Assembly: GCA_023100825.1 (NCBI GenBank)
Contig: CP095846.1
Location: 2,108,001 to 2,172,000, forward strand
Direction: 5' to 3'
DNA from: Nocardioidaceae bacterium SCSIO 66511
GTDB taxonomy: Bacteria > Actinomycetota > Actinomycetes > Propionibacteriales > Nocardioidaceae
DNA length: 64,000 bases
In this document: in pieces, positions 5,557-11,391 of the stretch
How positions within the stretch are numbered: the stretch's first letter is position 1
How the letters are laid out: every line of letters starts with the position of its first letter
Notes under the pieces: model-generated
The model's database searches: none
What the model was told of the DNA's origin: nothing
The model's input: the letters and a program-made list of their open reading frames with translations, nothing else
Made by a program: the position numbers and the translations under genes

Positions 5557-5706
5557 CCGCTACCCCGGCAAGTTTGCTCCGTAGCGGCGATAAATCACTG
5601 GGGAGCGGTGACCGCGTGGGTCGGACCTCCGCGTACGGACCGGTGTCTGGCGGCCGTACGATGGGAACCGGAGCCACTCACCCCGCAGAGAACCCGAGGA
5701 ACACCC

Positions 5707-6621
5707 GTGACTGAAGCTGTGACCGCCCCCGAGCCCACCCACGACGTCGGCACCGCTCGCGTCAAGCGCGGCATGGCCGAGATGCTCAAGGGCGGCGTGA
5801 TCATGGACGTCGTCGATGCCGAGCAGGCGAAGATCGCCGAGGATGCCGGCGCCGTTGCGGTGATGGCCTTGGAGCGCGTACCTGCCGATATCCGCTCGCA
5901 GGGCGGCGTCGCACGGATGAGTGATCCGGACCTGATCGACGGCATCGTCGAAGCCGTGTCGATCCCCGTGATGGCCAAGGCGCGCATCGGCCACTTCGTC
6001 GAGGCACAGGTGCTGCAGTCGCTCGGCGTCGACTACATCGACGAGTCCGAGGTGCTGACCCCGGCCGACTACGCGAACCACATCGACAAGTGGCAGTTCA
6101 CGGTGCCGTTCGTATGCGGCGCGACGAACCTCGGCGAGGCACTCCGCCGCATCACCGAGGGGGCGGCGATGATCCGTTCCAAGGGCGAGGCAGGCACGGG
6201 TGACGTCTCGAACGCCACGACCCACATGCGCCAGATCCGCGCCGAGCTCCGCCGGCTCACCAGCCTGCCCGAGGACGAGCTCTATGTGGCCGCCAAGGAG
6301 CTGCAGGCGCCGTACGCGCTGGTCCAGGAGGTCGCTGCCGCGGGCAAGCTCCCTGTCGTGTTGTTCACCGCCGGCGGCATCGCGACGCCGGCCGACGCCG
6401 CGATGATGATGCAGCTCGGCGCCGAGGGTGTGTTCGTCGGTTCCGGCATCTTCAAGTCGGGCAACCCGGCGCAGCGTGCCGAGGCGATCGTCAAGGCGAC
6501 GACCTTCCACGACGATCCCGATGTGATCGCCAAGGTCTCCCGTGGCCTCGGTGAGGCGATGGTCGGCATCAACGTCGACGACGTGCCCGAGCCGCACCGA
6601 CTCGCCGAACGCGGTTGGTGA
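5707..6621 (+). CDS. pdxS: Pyridoxal 5'-phosphate synthase, synthase subunit
   Basis: Builds PLP from ribose 5-phosphate, glyceraldehyde 3-phosphate and ammonia supplied by PdxT, in a cytoplasmic 12+12 complex. The 304-residue protein shows the near-invariant family stretches [27 protein letters not shown] and [13 protein letters not shown], plus [13 protein letters not shown] in the phosphate-binding region. The GTG at 5707 is preferred because GAGG lies 8 bp upstream and the family similarity begins just after it. Its partner pdxT lies 4.2 kb downstream, separated by six genes, rather than adjacent as is usual. A TACGAT sequence at 5657-5662 could be its -10 element. Confidence 0.96.
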
Positions 6622-6633
6622 CGCGGGCACCGG

Positions 6634-7206
6634 ATGGGTTTCCGCAGCGTCCCGAAGCTGACGGTAGATGAGGAGCTTCGCGGGTTCGCACGCGTCGTCG
6701 TCCGGGCAGGTACGTACGACGACGAGCGTACGTACGCCGAGATCGTCGAGGCCGTACGCGCATCCGGCTCTGCCGAGCCGGAGGTCCGCGCCACGGCGTT
6801 GCTCGAGGAGGCGACCTCGGCGCTGAACCGTGATCAGACGTCGTGGCCAGACGTCACCGACTTCGACCGGCTGCAGGGCGTGTTCGCCGACCTCGACTCG
6901 CGCGGACTCCCGGTGCTGCAGGCGATCGAGGACCACTGGGTCGCGCAGGCCGAACTCGAGCGGCGCGCGCGTACGGGTCCGGCATGCCGGGGTGTCGTCT
7001 GGTTCACCGCACCCGACGTCTGGCACGCGGTCGACCACGGGATGCTGGAGCTGAACGTCTGGCATGCCGACTCCGCGAACGTCGCCGACGGCGATCCGCT
7101 CCTTGCCGAGGTGCTGGAGGCGCTTGCGACGGCGGGTTTCGACGCGCAGTTCGATGAGGGCCGCATCGAGGTCTCCGCTTCCTGGCACCGACGCCTCGGC
7201 ACCTGA
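6634..7206 (+). CDS. Uncharacterised protein (resembles DUF6891-type proteins)
   Basis: A 190-residue acidic soluble protein. The N-terminal half is helical with a VVVRAGTYDDERTYAEIVEA stretch, and the middle carries SWPDVTDFDRLQGVFADL. This W-x4-TD-x-DRL pattern resembles the uncharacterised DUF6891 group, by eye only. There is no signal peptide or membrane segment and no catalytic motif I can recognise. It begins 12 bp after the pdxS stop and is probably co-transcribed with it. A role in vitamin B6 metabolism is not shown by the sequence. Confidence 0.68.
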   Translation: MGFRSVPKLTVDEELRGFARVVVRAGTYDDERTYAEIVEAVRASGSAEPEVRATALLEEATSALNRDQTSWPDVTDFDRLQGVFADLDSRGLPVLQAIEDHWVAQAELERRARTGPACRGVVWFTAPDVWHAVDHGMLELNVWHADSANVADGDPLLAEVLEALATAGFDAQFDEGRIEVSASWHRRLGT

Positions 7207-7225
7207 CGTACGCCCTCCTCTTGAA

Positions 7226-7284
7226 GAGTTTGCGGACTTTTCAGTGCTGGCGCAGCGTACGAACACCGAAAAGTCCACAAACTC
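7226..7284. repeat. Imperfect inverted repeat after the 6634-7206 gene (likely terminator-like element)
   Basis: The left arm 7226-7250 (begins GAGTTTGCGGACTTTTC) pairs with the right arm 7260-7284 (its complement begins GAGTTTGTGGACTTTTC) with only a few mismatches. The loop is about 9 bases. It starts 19 bp after a stop codon, like the nusB-linked element at 58050-58108. Confidence 0.65.
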
Positions 7285-7359
7285 CGTCACGCGCCCGCGG
7301 ATGGCTCGAAGTAGCCGCTCCGCATAGCCCTTTCGAGGCATCTTTACTTGAAGTTTGAA

Positions 7360-7372
7360 TAACTGTCCGTGA
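7360..7372. promoter_or_regulatory. Candidate BldD-box upstream of the SipW/TasA-like module
   Basis: The sequence TAAC-TGTCC-GTGA fits the pseudo-palindromic TNAC-N5-GTNA BldD operator pattern. It lies 112 bp before the first gene of the module, in the 278-bp gap 7207-7484. The pattern has six fixed bases, so chance occurrence is possible. The case rests on its intergenic position and on the presence of bldD in the same window. I could not assign a convincing -35/-10 pair here. Confidence 0.4.
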
Positions 7373-7484
7373 TCTCGTGTTTGCATGAAGTGACTCCACC
7401 GAGCGTCTCTGAGCCGGGTTACTGCGAGTCGTCATGTCAGCCGAAGGCGCGTGCTCACGCGCCCATGCGTAGAAAGACCACGAG

Positions 7485-8012
7485 ATGAACAAGACAACCA
7501 AGGGCGCCCTCGCTGCCGCGACTGCCGCAGCCCTGCTCATCGGCGGTGCGGGCACGCTCGCGTTCTGGTCCGACAGTGACAGCGTCGACGCGGGGACGAT
7601 CACGGCCGGCAACCTCAGCCTGACGCCCGCCGCGCCTGCCGCGACGTGGACCGACGCCCACGACTCGTCCACGATCTCCGACATCGCGAGCTTCCGTGTC
7701 GTACCCGGCGACAAGCTGGTCTACGAGGCAGGGTTCACCGTCAACGTCGACGGCGACAATCTCGAGGCCGCTCTCGACGTCGACGATGCCTCGGTGTCCG
7801 GCGCGCTGCTCGACGAGTCGAGCGTCAACGTCGCCGTGACCGACTCCGGCGGTGGCGCGATCGACGCGATCACGCCTGCCCAGGACGGCGAGACGATCAC
7901 CGCCAGGGTCACCTTCGACTTCCCGTACGCGGCGGCGACCAACGATTCGCAGCAGCAGGCCGTGGACCTCAGCGGTCTGCGACTCACGCTGACCCAGCAG
8001 CCGGTTTCCTGA
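7485..8012 (+). CDS. Exported protein with alternate (SipW-type) signal peptide, TasA/camelysin-like
   Basis: A 175-residue secreted protein. The N-terminus MNKTTKGALAAATAAALLIG followed by TLAFWSDS is the alternate-type signal peptide recognised by SipW-like peptidases. The mature start then shows the typical GTITAGNLSL strand. The rest is beta-rich and Asp/Ala-rich, consistent with a single jelly-roll domain like TasA or camelysin fibre subunits (family inference). It is the first gene of a five-gene module that includes two SipW-type peptidases. It probably ends up on the cell surface or in the extracellular matrix; fibre formation is not shown by the sequence. Confidence 0.85.
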   Translation: MNKTTKGALAAATAAALLIGGAGTLAFWSDSDSVDAGTITAGNLSLTPAAPAATWTDAHDSSTISDIASFRVVPGDKLVYEAGFTVNVDGDNLEAALDVDDASVSGALLDESSVNVAVTDSGGGAIDAITPAQDGETITARVTFDFPYAAATNDSQQQAVDLSGLRLTLTQQPVS

Positions 8013-8031
8013 GGCCGGGGAGACGACTGAC

Positions 8032-8562
8032 ATGCGGATGCGCTCGGCGTTCCTCGTCGCGGGCTTGGTTGTCGTCGTGACCGGCGCGGTCATGACGACA
8101 ACGAGCGCGCGCTGGCACGCCGAGCGCGGATTCGATGCGGGCGTCGTCAGCGGTGGAGAGCTCTCCGTCGCGGTCGGAGCGGGCGGGGCTCAGTCCTCGA
8201 ACCTTGCGCTGGACGGGCTCAGCGGCGAGAACCTCGGTCCGGGCAGCTACCGGCAGTCCCCGCTCACGGTCAGCAACGACGGCGACATCGACCTGCGCTA
8301 TCGCCGAGCCGGCGTGTCATGGGGCGCGCTCGCCGGGCAGGCGACGTTGACCGCCGTACGCGTTTCGGCCGAGTCTGCGTGTCAGCCGACCGGATCGCCG
8401 GCGAACGCCGGGGGCGACTTCACGCAGTTCCGTACGCTCGCGCCTGGCGATTCGGAGACCTGGTGCCTGCGGCTCGCCTTGGGCGACAACCCGCCGCAGA
8501 GCGTCTCCGCAAACGTCGTCAGCGTCGAAGTGCGGGCAGAGCAGGTGCGTCATGGCGCCTGA
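8032..8562 (+). CDS. Exported SipW-dependent-type protein, second member of the module
   Basis: A 176-residue protein with a hydrophobic leader (about residues 5-22: AFLVAGLVVVVTGAVMTTTS) followed by ARWHAERGFDAGVVSGGELS. The aromatic residue after the leader and the glycine-rich turn repeat the alternate-signal layout of its neighbours. The body is beta-rich, with the phrase LGPGSYRQSPLTVSNDGDIDL, like the 'interval' strands of TasA-type domains. Two cysteines (SACQPT and TWCLRL) could form a disulphide after export. It starts 19 bp after the previous gene, and its 3' end overlaps the signal peptidase gene by 11 bp. Confidence 0.78.
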   Translation: MRMRSAFLVAGLVVVVTGAVMTTTSARWHAERGFDAGVVSGGELSVAVGAGGAQSSNLALDGLSGENLGPGSYRQSPLTVSNDGDIDLRYRRAGVSWGALAGQATLTAVRVSAESACQPTGSPANAGGDFTQFRTLAPGDSETWCLRLALGDNPPQSVSANVVSVEVRAEQVRHGA

Positions 8563-9136
8563 TCACGTCGCTGGCGCCTGGTCGTGGGTACGCCAGGTCG
8601 TCGCGTGGTTCGTACTTCTCGCGGCGATCGCGGTCCTCGCAGTCGCCGTGATCGTGCCGCGTATCGCGGGGGCGACCCCGTACGCGGTGCAGACCGGTTC
8701 GATGCAGCCGACGTACCCGCCGGGCACCCTCGTCGTCACGAAGCCGGTCGACAACGCCGACATCGGTATCGGTACGCCGATCACGTATCAACTCGACTCA
8801 GGGCGCAGCACTGTCGTGACGCACCGCGTCGTGGGCGTACGTCTAGGCGCCGACGGCAAGAACTGGTTTCAGACCCAAGGCGACGCCAACAACGCGCCCG
8901 ATGAGGAGTTGGTGCGCCCGATCCAGGTCCGCGGCGAGGTCTGGTACGACGTCCCGTACCTCGGCCGGCTGAACGCCGTACTCACCGGGAGTCAGCACCA
9001 GCTCCTGGTGTTCCTCGTGGCGGGCGCCCTCGTGGCGTACGCGCTGCTGATGTTCGGGTCTGCGTTGCGTGACCGAGCGCGTGATCGTCGTGGAGAGACG
9101 ACGGACGTCGGTCGACACCGGGAGCTCGCATCATGA
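8552..9136 (+). CDS. sipW: SipW-type signal peptidase I
   Basis: A 194-residue membrane peptidase expected to remove the alternate signal peptides of the neighbouring exported proteins. A TM helix at about residues 17-37 is followed by the catalytic serine in TGSMQP (Ser50). The general base is a histidine in VVTHRVV (His91) in place of the bacterial lysine, which marks the SipW/ER type. The conserved GDANN (Asp111) follows, then a second TM helix near residues 148-168. The gene overlaps its predecessor by 11 bp and its successor by 4 bp, so synthesis is tightly coupled to the putative substrates. Confidence 0.9.
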   Translation: MAPDHVAGAWSWVRQVVAWFVLLAAIAVLAVAVIVPRIAGATPYAVQTGSMQPTYPPGTLVVTKPVDNADIGIGTPITYQLDSGRSTVVTHRVVGVRLGADGKNWFQTQGDANNAPDEELVRPIQVRGEVWYDVPYLGRLNAVLTGSQHQLLVFLVAGALVAYALLMFGSALRDRARDRRGETTDVGRHRELAS

Positions 9137-9687
9137 CCATTGGAGAACGCATCCGCCACGCATGGACCTCCGCACGGGTCCGTGCCGTGCTTTCGCTCGG
9201 TTTCGTCGCCGGCCTTGCCGTCGCTACGACGTCTGCGTACTGGACCGACACCGCGACCGCGACCGCGACGATCAGCACCGGCAGCATCGATCTCCGGCTC
9301 GGCGCAGCAGCGGTCGACAACGACCCGGTCGAGACGACGTCGTTCTCGATCAGCGACATGGTTCCCGGCTCGACGAAGGATCAACCGCTGCCCGTCGCCA
9401 ACGTCGGCACAGTCCCGATCACGTACGCGATGTCAGTCACCGCGTCAGGTGGGCTTGCTTCGGGACTCCGGATGCAGGTGTACTCCGCGGACAGCGATGG
9501 TGCGTGTACCGGGACGGTGGTCGCCGACGGTCTACCGATGTCCGCCGCGAGCTTCTCCGGTCGGCCGCTGGCAGCGGGCGGACACGAACGACTCTGCCTT
9601 CGGGTGACGCTTCCGGTGGGAGCATCGTCAGCCCTGCAAGGCACGTCGGCCACCGCAACGCTCACCTTCACGGCGACGTCGAGGTGA
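9133..9687 (+). CDS. Exported SipW-dependent-type protein, third member (TasA-like)
   Basis: A 184-residue secreted protein. The leader AVLSLGFVAGLAVATTS is followed by AYWTDTATATATISTGSIDL, the classic alternate-signal layout with AYWTD at the processing region. The body has the strand phrase MVPGSTKDQPLPVANVG that recurs in TasA/camelysin-type domains. A pair of cysteines (GACTGT and RLCLRV) may form a disulphide. It overlaps the upstream signal peptidase gene by 4 bp (ATGA) and is followed 7 bp later by the peptidase-fusion gene. Its leader and mature start resemble the 7485 protein, suggesting related surface subunits. Confidence 0.83.
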   Translation: MTIGERIRHAWTSARVRAVLSLGFVAGLAVATTSAYWTDTATATATISTGSIDLRLGAAAVDNDPVETTSFSISDMVPGSTKDQPLPVANVGTVPITYAMSVTASGGLASGLRMQVYSADSDGACTGTVVADGLPMSAASFSGRPLAAGGHERLCLRVTLPVGASSALQGTSATATLTFTATSR

Positions 9688-9694
9688 TGCCGCT

Positions 9695-10786
9695 GTGAAT
9701 TCCTTCCCTCGACCCGCGCGGCTCGCGCGTGAGGCCGCGCTCACGCTCGGCGCGTTCGCGGGCATTGTCTGCATCGTGCTTGCGCTGATGCCGGCGTTCG
9801 GCATCCGCCCACTCGTCGTCACATCTGGTTCGATGGAGCCTGACATCGCCACCGGGGCGCTCGCGTTCACGCACGGTGTCGGAGCGGGAGACCTCCGCGT
9901 CGGCGATGTCGTGAGCGTGCGTGACGAGTCGGGTGTTCGGGTCACGCACCGGATCGAGTCGATGCGCGGCAACGACGGGCTCGCTCAGTTGACGCTGCGA
10001 GGCGACGCCAACGCGGTCGCCGATGCGCGCGCCTACGAGGTCAGCCGCGCGGACCGAGTGCTGTTCTCGGTCGACGGACTCGGGTACGCATTGGGCTGGT
10101 TGCGTACGCCTTTGGGCATCGTCGTCGCGAGTGCGATCGCGATTTCGCTGCTGTGGTTGGCTTTCCGGGACGGCGCCGACAACACGCGTACGCAGAGATC
10201 AGCAGGACGCAGGGGAGTGGCGAGCGCCGCCGCGATCGCTGTCGTCGCGGTGGCCGCGGCGGGGGCGTACGAGTTCGCTTCGGCCGAGCCGACGCGGGCG
10301 GCGTGGACGGACCAGGCGAGTGCGCGCACCGGCCAGTTCGATGCGGCCACGGTGCTTCCGCCCACGACTGCACCGGAGTGCACGAACCAAGGCGGCCTGC
10401 TGGGGCTGCTCGGCTACGCACAACTCACCTGGCCCCACCGAGACGCGGCGTACTCCTACGCCTACACGATCACCCGAGTGTCCAACGGCCAGGTCGTCGG
10501 CGGAGGCAGCGTGTCGGCGAGTGGTGGGGTCGGATCGACGGTCACGCTCGATGTCCGCACCGCGCTACTGGGCAACAACCTGCTGGAGAACACCGACTAT
10601 GACGTGACGGTGCGATCCGTACTCAACGCATCCGGCGGGTGGCAGTCGACCGGCAGATGGACCACGCGCGTGCACTCGGCCAACCTCCTCGTCGGCCTGA
10701 GCATGCGGTGCGGACCCGGCGGAGTCAACCGAATCGTGTCCTCGACGACCGACTCGCCAGCGGCGACAACTAATCTGGAGCGGTGA
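9695..10786 (+). CDS. SipW-type signal peptidase fused to an exported substrate-like domain
   Basis: A 363-residue two-part protein. Residues 1-160 are a SipW-type peptidase: TM near 13-35, catalytic Ser46 in TSGSMEP, His85 in VRVTHRI, GDAN at 103-106 and a second TM near 133-157. Next comes a third hydrophobic segment (about 174-195, [18 protein letters not shown]), then [16 protein letters not shown], which copies the alternate-signal cleavage layout. A beta-rich C-terminal domain of about 150 residues follows, fibronectin-III-like in feel. So a peptidase appears joined to a substrate of its own type. The GTG start has GAGGTG 8 bp upstream. The stop overlaps pdxT (GTGA). Confidence 0.82.
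10771..10776 (+). promoter_or_regulatory. Possible -10 element of a leaderless pdxT transcript
   Basis: TAATCT ends 6 bp before the pdxT GTG. This is the spacing expected when transcription begins at or next to the start codon. It lies inside the 3' end of the peptidase-fusion gene. No clear -35 is visible. It would let pdxT be expressed independently of the surface module before it. Confidence 0.38.
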
Positions 10787-11391
10787 GCACAACCCCCACC
10801 GTCGGCGTCTTCTCGCTCCAGGGCGACGTACGCGAACACCTGCGCGTACTGTCCGATCTCGGCGCCGAGGCGATCGCCGTACGAAGGCCGAGCGAACTCG
10901 AGCGCTGCGACGGCTTCGTGCTGCCCGGCGGCGAGTCGACCACGATGTACAAGCTGGCGCGTACGTTCGAGCTGTTCGAGCCGCTGCAGAAGCGGATCGC
11001 GGGCGGGATGCCGACGTTCGGTACGTGCGCCGGGATGATCATGCTGGCCGACGAGATCAAGGACGGCATCGAGGGCCAGGAGACGCTCGGCGGGCTCGAT
11101 GTCACGGTGCGACGCAACGCGTTCGGGCGTCAGGTCGACTCCTTCGAGACCGATCTCGAGTTCGATGCGTTCGCAGCACCCGTGCACGCGGTGTTCATCC
11201 GGGCGCCGTGGGTGGAGCGTGCCGGCCCCGACGTCGAGGTGCTCGCCCGCGTACCCACAGGTGACGAGGCGGCCGGAGCGGTCGTCGCGGTCCGCCAGGG
11301 CCATCTGCTGGCGACGTCGTTTCACCCGGAAGTCGCGCATGACGACCGCATCCACCGCTACTTCCTCGACCTGGTACGCGCGGGAGGCTGA
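10783..11391 (+). CDS. pdxT: Pyridoxal 5'-phosphate synthase, glutaminase subunit
   Basis: Class I glutamine amidotransferase (202 residues) that releases ammonia from glutamine and passes it to PdxS. Visible signatures are [13 protein letters not shown] at the N-terminus, the oxyanion region LPGGEST, the catalytic cysteine in GTCAGM, and the His/Glu pair in HPEV near the C-terminus. The GTG start overlaps the preceding stop by 4 bp. Normally next to pdxS, it is here separated from it by an uncharacterised gene and a five-gene surface-protein module. It may have its own promoter just upstream. Confidence 0.95.

Follow-up and report, generated by a model that had tools for sequence, protein, structure and literature searches.

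A SipW-type signal peptidase fused to a predicted substrate of its own class in actinobacteria

Our analysis of a 64,000-nucleotide stretch of actinobacterial DNA, referred to here as the window, indicates that the gene at 9695-10786 encodes an ER/SipW-type signal peptidase whose tail is, judged from its sequence, a complete precursor of a substrate of that same enzyme class. Peptidases of the SipW kind are known; among the matches listed in the open-licence literature, we found no description of one joined in a single chain to a protein that it cuts. The fusion, its catalytic motifs, the homology of its tail to free substrates, a pair of cysteines and the gene order can be read directly from the DNA. 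On this basis we favor, as the probable though by no means certain explanation, a working peptidase carrying a SipW-class precursor whose tail would be exported, cut between A202 and A203, and used as an FN3-type subunit for a TasA-like fiber. The genome from which the window was taken is a single contig of 4.6 Mb. The parts of the fusion gene, all on the plus strand, are as follows.

9695..10786, +: fusion gene, GTG start, 363 aa; ER/SipW-type signal peptidase, third membrane segment with SipW-type signal/cleavage motif, and FN3-type domain, predicted to be exported
9695..10174, +: signal peptidase domain, aa 1-160; TIGR02228 over aa 26-157, 57.3 bits; model helices at aa 6-35 and 139-160
9830..9832, +: catalytic Ser46 (by motif); invariant in the 14-member alignment; S[GS]SMxP in 78/78 fusions
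9947..9949, +: catalytic His85 of the Ser-His (ER-type) dyad (by motif); invariant in the 14-member alignment; THR in 78/78
10001..10012, +: GDAN motif, aa 103-106; GDxN in 78/78 fusions
10214..10270, +: third hydrophobic segment, aa 174-192, putative internal SipW-type signal peptide; from hydropathy, model helix 174-194, and a counterpart segment that opens separate tail proteins
10292..10315, +: predicted cleavage motif T200-R-A202/A203-W204-T-D206 (P3 Thr, P1 Ala, P2' Trp); predicted cut between 10300 and 10301
10301..10354, +: extended low-confidence segment, predicted mature N terminus, aa 203-220, in the place of the TasA donor strand; pLDDT of about 62 for residues 201-220; TasA strand 28-38 as described in PMC9674648
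10376..10717, +: FN3-type domain, aa 228-341; strands 228-339 in a model with pLDDT 85 and pTM 0.78; best Z 9.9 to a fibronectin domain
10379..10381, +: Cys229, first of a pair conserved among fusions
10709..10711, +: Cys339, second of that pair

With respect to the peptidase half, the earlier note on this DNA had read a SipW-type enzyme with Ser46, His85, and GDAN in the first 160 residues of the open reading frame at 9695-10786, and this reading was confirmed: residues 26-157 match TIGR02228 (archaeal/ER-type signal peptidase I) above its cut-off of 51.85 bits. Ser46, His85, G103, D104, and N106 are invariant in a 14-member alignment of fusions, and the three catalytic motifs (Ser, His, and GDxN) are intact in every one of the 78 fusions that we gathered. 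A Ser-His instead of a Ser-Lys dyad, together with GDxN, places the enzyme in the ER type, of which the Ser-His dyad is described as a trait (PMC10269814). SEC11A and SEC11C, subunits of the signal peptidase complex, were the sole solved relatives of the peptidase in a profile search at E <= 0.01, and the Bacillus SipW equivalog NF046067 gave 44.1 bits, far below its cut-off of 190. In the draft genome of Cryobacterium ruanii, in which a second peptidase could have been missed given the state of the assembly, the fusion is the only TIGR02228 match and has two TIGR04088 substrates directly upstream, while the other 17 genomes queried hold 2 to 6 TIGR02228 matches each. Since the sole match in C. 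ruanii lies beside two substrates, the fused peptidase is probably functional.

In a quick tree built from 122 peptidase domains (78 fused, 23 unfused, and the short SipW type thinned to 21, a quarter), the fused and unfused fusion-type peptidases fall together on one side of a branch with support 100, apart from the short type. Within this clade the unfused members are nested, which requires at least 6 changes, of which the starred branches alone force only 2. Three Aeromicrobium loci (L074, 564-2119; L085, 443-2053; L134, 508-2063) have two fusions plus an extra peptidase of 177 to 180 aa on a separate branch (support 99), without an adjoining tail gene.

The architecture, which the earlier note allowed might be missing from homologues, recurs across actinobacteria. 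Outside the window, matches to the protein at 1e-20 came from 14 places, one of them just 236 aa long. A single-protein search of genome contigs confirmed nothing; a profile search of genome contigs with the 14-member alignment, from which the best 80 of 114 relatives were kept, yielded together with the first set 78 distinct long forms of 291 to 679 aa, five loci that were present twice from different sources being counted once each. For the 69 long forms in loci L057 to L136, the criterion was at least 280 aa and at least 110 bits. The genera concerned are Rhodococcus, Rhodococcoides, Prescottella, Nocardioides, Aeromicrobium, Cryobacterium, Psychromicrobium, Arthrobacter, and Renibacterium, along with other actinobacteria; the taxonomy of four Rhodococcus records (L061, L066, L081, and L103) maps to the cyanobacterium Gloeocapsa, an evident name clash. 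Presence is patchy. Of 98 related genomes, among them the one that contains the window, 27 have a match to the protein at E <= 0.001, and the tail alone finds matches in 4. With the window protein as query, 31 of 147 genomes of the order match at 1e-10, and with an unfused relative as query, 13 of 197 genomes of the class match at 1e-12, some short peptidases being included in both counts.

Among phages, no match to the fusion was found, and the 13 plasmid records that match do so through the peptidase domain only. An Arthrobacter plasmid protein of similar layout was nonsignificant against the tail profile (0.44). On a Pseudarthrobacter psychrotolerans plasmid (NZ_CP047900.1; L137, 4317-6164), we observed a 615-aa "signal peptidase I" in which a TasA-like SipW substrate is followed by a peptidase and then an exported-looking segment with an LPxTG-like end; it was left uncounted, as the join of its first two parts could be a read-through after a frame change.

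The fusion gene closes a tight five-gene block at 7485-10786, flanked by genes that we take from their sequences to be pdxS (5608-6621) and pdxT (10783-11391). The last four genes of the block either overlap their neighbors or leave almost no gap, and the end of the fusion gene extends 4 bases into pdxT. The other four genes are the following.

7485..8012, +: SipW substrate, protein with alternate-type signal peptide; TIGR04089, 159.7 bits, cut-off 60
8032..8562, +: probable third SipW substrate, N-terminal segment ending in TTTSARW; no family match; homologues in other such loci
8552..9136, +: short stand-alone SipW-type signal peptidase, 194 aa; TIGR02228, 84.9 bits
9133..9687, +: TasA/camelysin-like SipW substrate; TIGR04088 signal over the cut-off; PF12389 20.0 bits, below the cut-off of 22.5

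Both of the genome's TIGR04088 matches fall in this block. An alignment of the protein encoded at 9133 with its homologues (24 of 121 taken) has PF12389 matches in 18 of its 24 sequences, and against solved structures the 9133 protein gave just a weak hit to archaeal AbpX (E 0.064); for the protein encoded at 7485, a search for TasA homology among solved structures returned no convincing hit. At least one same-strand substrate lies beside each of the 69 fusions in L057 to L136.

The interval between pdxS and pdxT that holds the SipW block runs from 6634 to 10786 in the window. We found pdxT in 25 of 71 other fusion loci; in 22 of these 25 it starts no more than 220 bases from the fusion stop, and in 17 of them pdxS is present as well. 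Just one of the genomes searched, G001, belongs to the same genus; in it pdxS, the following open reading frame, pdxT, and yebC occur with no block between them, and since the same neighbors occur there without it, the SipW block is optional. In that assembly, pdxT (L159, 12204-12795) is split over two reading frames.

The proposal that a further hydrophobic segment and [13 protein letters not shown] (fusion residues 202-214, downstream of the hydrophobic segment 174-192) resemble the signal and processing region of the neighboring exported proteins was also borne out. Segment 174-192 is followed by T-R-A/A-W-T-D, that is, [TS]xA plus an aromatic residue with an acidic residue close behind, the arrangement typical of SipW signals. 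With a 36-position matrix trained on 139 signals of nonpeptidase SipW substrates, which favors the motif because its training windows were picked by motif pattern, the window tail scored 16.7, against a best of 4.6 for 780 shuffled fusion tails and 5.5 for 7027 other open reading frames. Among the 78 fusion tails, 71 exceeded the 99% point of the shuffles, 72 exceeded the 99% point of the other open reading frames, and 48 outscored every one of the latter, several of whose top scorers are themselves separate tail genes. Profile comparison for the SipW-dependent signal peptide gave 96.7% (E 4e-10), a figure biased by the selection of segments by motif score (39 of the 41 that passed, from 78). 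In the plain 14-member alignment, A202 is invariant and T200 and D206 are conserved at 90% or more; over all 78 fusions, the P3 residue is T in 62, A in 9, and S in 7, at sites chosen under a rule that demands A at P1, prefers T or S at P3, and misplaces a few. The motif of one odd member, L129_4977, was not located at the usual place in the tail by either the matrix or the rule.

Two other tools were set aside. The curated SipW-signal model TIGR04088, which has no match to the window tail at E <= 1, was dropped as too insensitive for tails, as it matches just 2 of 14 fusions. A first substrate profile of 198 positions, with which 33 of 78 tails and none of 390 shuffles reached 10 and 9 of 78 tails had no hit at all, was replaced by the short matrix.

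That the tail belongs to the peptidase's own class of substrate, as the earlier note had supposed, is supported by its existence as a free SipW-type precursor in relatives. Of 23 unfused fusion-type peptidases, we used for this count the 16 with no fusion in the locus, leaving out L093, L094, L097, and L099, where a TasA-like gene and then a separate fusion follow, and the three Aeromicrobium copies, which have fusions in the locus and no adjoining tail gene. In 15 of the 16, the adjacent gene encodes a separate tail protein with its own SipW-type signal that matches fusion tails at E <= 1e-3; the exception is L122, in which a profile scan shows a tail-like open reading frame on the opposite strand of the locus. 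The best free tail, from Prescottella agglutinans, matches the Prescottella equi fusion with 44% over 379 aa (5.6e-62), and the match begins inside the signal. All 15 adjacent free tails have T at P3 of the chosen site (the pick favors T) and their last K or R exactly 23 residues before P1. Their cysteines lie 27 to 44 and 118 to 137 residues after the cut, as do those of the window tail at +27 and +137.

In two genomes of the same family (L052 and L050), the slot of the window fusion is occupied by a free FN3 protein (166 or 156 aa) that bears a SipW-type signal; a short SipW and then another gene whose product has such a signal precede it, and pdxT follows. Against the tail profile, the free FN3 proteins of L052 and L050 reach 1.7e-17 and 4.1e-7, respectively. 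The L052 protein compares with the tail family at 96.7% (E 3.9e-10) and directly with the window tail at 31% over 121 aa; the direct match of the L050 protein is short. Neither block has a second peptidase, weaker peptidase matches lying elsewhere in both genomes, and the free FN3 proteins are presumably cut by the short SipW. Because these blocks carry the FN3 protein without a second peptidase, the fusion is not essential. A free tail form is also found on a Pseudarthrobacter plasmid (2.6e-5).

The beta-rich domain expected after the motif was recovered in structure models as an FN3-type sandwich. The whole-fusion model (pLDDT 74, pTM 0.48) has a third helix and then a beta-rich domain, and a model of the domain alone, built with 59 aligned sequences, shows the sandwich after about 20 low-confidence residues. 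The best structural match of the latter was a fibronectin domain, 5n47_D (92 residues, 2.4 A, Z 9.9), and neither model had a Foldseek hit at E <= 0.001. A tail-domain profile built from 59 of 74 linked domains finds FN3 structures with a best E of 1.7e-6. Pfam fn3 (PF00041) scores the window tail at 14.0 bits, below its cut-off of 25, and matches 7 of 59 relatives at E <= 0.1 (best 4.6e-6); PF12389 (TasA/camelysin) does not match the window tail. A cysteine pair spaced 76 to 124 residues apart is found in 75 of 78 fusions, the usual spacing being absent in L132 and L134_4980 and L090 being truncated at a contig end. Fusions of the Rhodococcus type (L063, L064, L069, L073, and others), at about 500 to 650 aa, have an extra C-terminal region past the FN3 domain.

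Basic loops stay on the cytoplasmic side of membranes, according to the positive-inside rule. K and R make up 23.5% of the loop between the second and third membrane segments and 2.3% of the 25 residues after the third (n=77), and the loop is net positive in 57 of 77 fusions. By this rule and the loop charge, with which the conserved cysteine pair agrees, the C-terminal domain is predicted to lie outside the cell membrane; the cytoplasmic location that would have spoken against the earlier note is thus not what the prediction gives.

Considering these data, we propose a model for the fused protein. The chain would cross the membrane three times, with the N terminus inside, the peptidase domain outside, a short basic loop between the second helix (139-160 in the model) and the third (174-194) inside, and the tail outside. 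The third helix would serve as an internal signal peptide, and cleavage after A202 might be carried out by the protein's own active site, by that of a neighboring copy, or by the adjacent short SipW. The freed FN3 domain, closed by a putative Cys229-Cys339 disulfide and with an extended N terminus starting AWTD, would then join or start a fiber made of the substrates encoded at 7485, 8032, and 9133. The simplest reading is that of a SipW peptidase with a TapA-like starter or minor subunit for its neighbors' fiber, both the fiber and the tail's membership in it being assumed. A more daring version, which we regard as rather unlikely, makes the fusion a one-chain starter of fiber assembly that is enzyme, anchor, and first subunit at once, the cis cut being its first turnover and exposing a donor-strand-like N terminus at an active peptidase. 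If so, fiber growth would begin only at active peptidases, where the fused peptidase would mature the other subunits.

Whether the tail is released at all, and by which enzyme, separates the main alternatives. An exported yet uncut tail, kept on the peptidase in the membrane as a docking site or nucleator for the fiber like a tethered TapA, seems to us improbable, albeit worth keeping in view. Permanent linkage would account for the fusion being kept, and the hydrophobic span is longer than in ordinary substrates: the last K or R lies a median of 27 residues before P1 in fusions versus 18 in the 139 ordinary substrates, which makes the third helix more anchor-like, with the free tail forms intermediate at 23. 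No aromatic residue occurs near P2' in 19 of 78 fusions, all from Rhodococcus or Rhodococcoides (L075, misplaced by the matrix, is excluded). However, the invariance of A202 and near invariance of T200 among the 14 aligned members argue for a site that is used, and the tail is separate with its own signal in many relatives, so that anchoring on the peptidase is unneeded for its function there. Somewhat more credible, though still doubtful, is that the tail is processed in trans alone, by the short SipW (8552-9136), with the fused peptidase acting on other substrates or in regulation and the fusion serving chiefly to fix location and stoichiometry. Of the 64 fusion loci among L057 to L136, 59 also have a short SipW, and such an enzyme is the peptidase that shares a block with the free FN3 protein in L052 and L050; against this stands C. 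ruanii, whose draft genome offers no other TIGR02228 match to do the cutting. Trans-only cleavage is in any case a version of our preferred explanation and not exclusive of it.

The remaining alternatives deny the arrangement any meaning. That the third helix is a mere extra transmembrane segment with a coincidental motif, or the fused peptidase a dead paralogue, we regard as very unlikely. The failure of TIGR04088 to match the window tail agrees with coincidence, but a matrix score above all 780 shuffles and 7027 background open reading frames, together with separate homologues bearing the same signal, largely refutes it, and the intact motifs of all 78 fusions and the sole match in C. ruanii lead us to reject a dead enzyme. 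Chance fusion or sequencing error, to which the missing fusion in the one same-genus genome might point, is refuted by the recurrence of 78 long forms in many genera and assemblies and by GC3 values that stay even across the junction (0.82, 0.82, 0.81, and 0.85), and we give it practically no weight.

Returning to the reading of a peptidase with its own exported subunit, the closest parallels are the proteins of the Bacillus matrix fiber. Like the window system, Bacillus SipW is a Ser-His ER-type signal peptidase encoded beside its own substrates; the window differs in having a second peptidase, of a clade apart from the short SipW type of these loci (support 100), with a complete predicted substrate as its C terminus. 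TasA, like the window tail, has an aromatic residue at P2', and PMC10269814 describes it as a protein that SipW cuts and that LepB cuts poorly. The mature TasA of B. subtilis is reported to start at residue 28, and one subunit is joined to the next by a donor strand made of residues 28 to 38 (PMC10151520 and PMC9674648). The fusion tail and TasA/camelysin proteins have their signal and cleavage regions in common, as compared over motif-selected segments, whereas PF12389, matched by the protein at 9133 and its homologues, gives way in the tail to an FN3-type domain.

TapA, as presented in PMC10151520, is a minor protein with a flexible N terminus and an Ig fold closed by Cys92-Cys188, and it donates its N terminus to start TasA filaments. 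The window tail would resemble it in its SipW-type signal, flexible N terminus, and disulfide-closed beta-sandwich. The TapA fold is a V-set Ig, whereas the window domain models as FN3, and TapA was absent both from the best 60 of 85 sequence hits of the tail profile and from the structural matches listed for the domain model. TapA is not fused to the peptidase in B. subtilis, unlike the window tail; the overlap of the tapA stop and sipW start codons is taken by the authors of PMC10151520 as a hint of functional and structural association.

Signal peptidases normally act on other proteins, and the name "signal peptidase I" hides the attached exported domain from the reader. In the fusion clade, enzyme and substrate are paired by sequence alone, and as both share one chain, cis versus trans cleavage and the start of a TasA-type fiber in actinobacteria become testable. 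The C. ruanii arrangement of two substrates and one fusion offers a small natural system for the question of self-trimming, and the clade as a whole may thus help to show whether such a peptidase can cut its own tail loose and so initiate a surface fiber.
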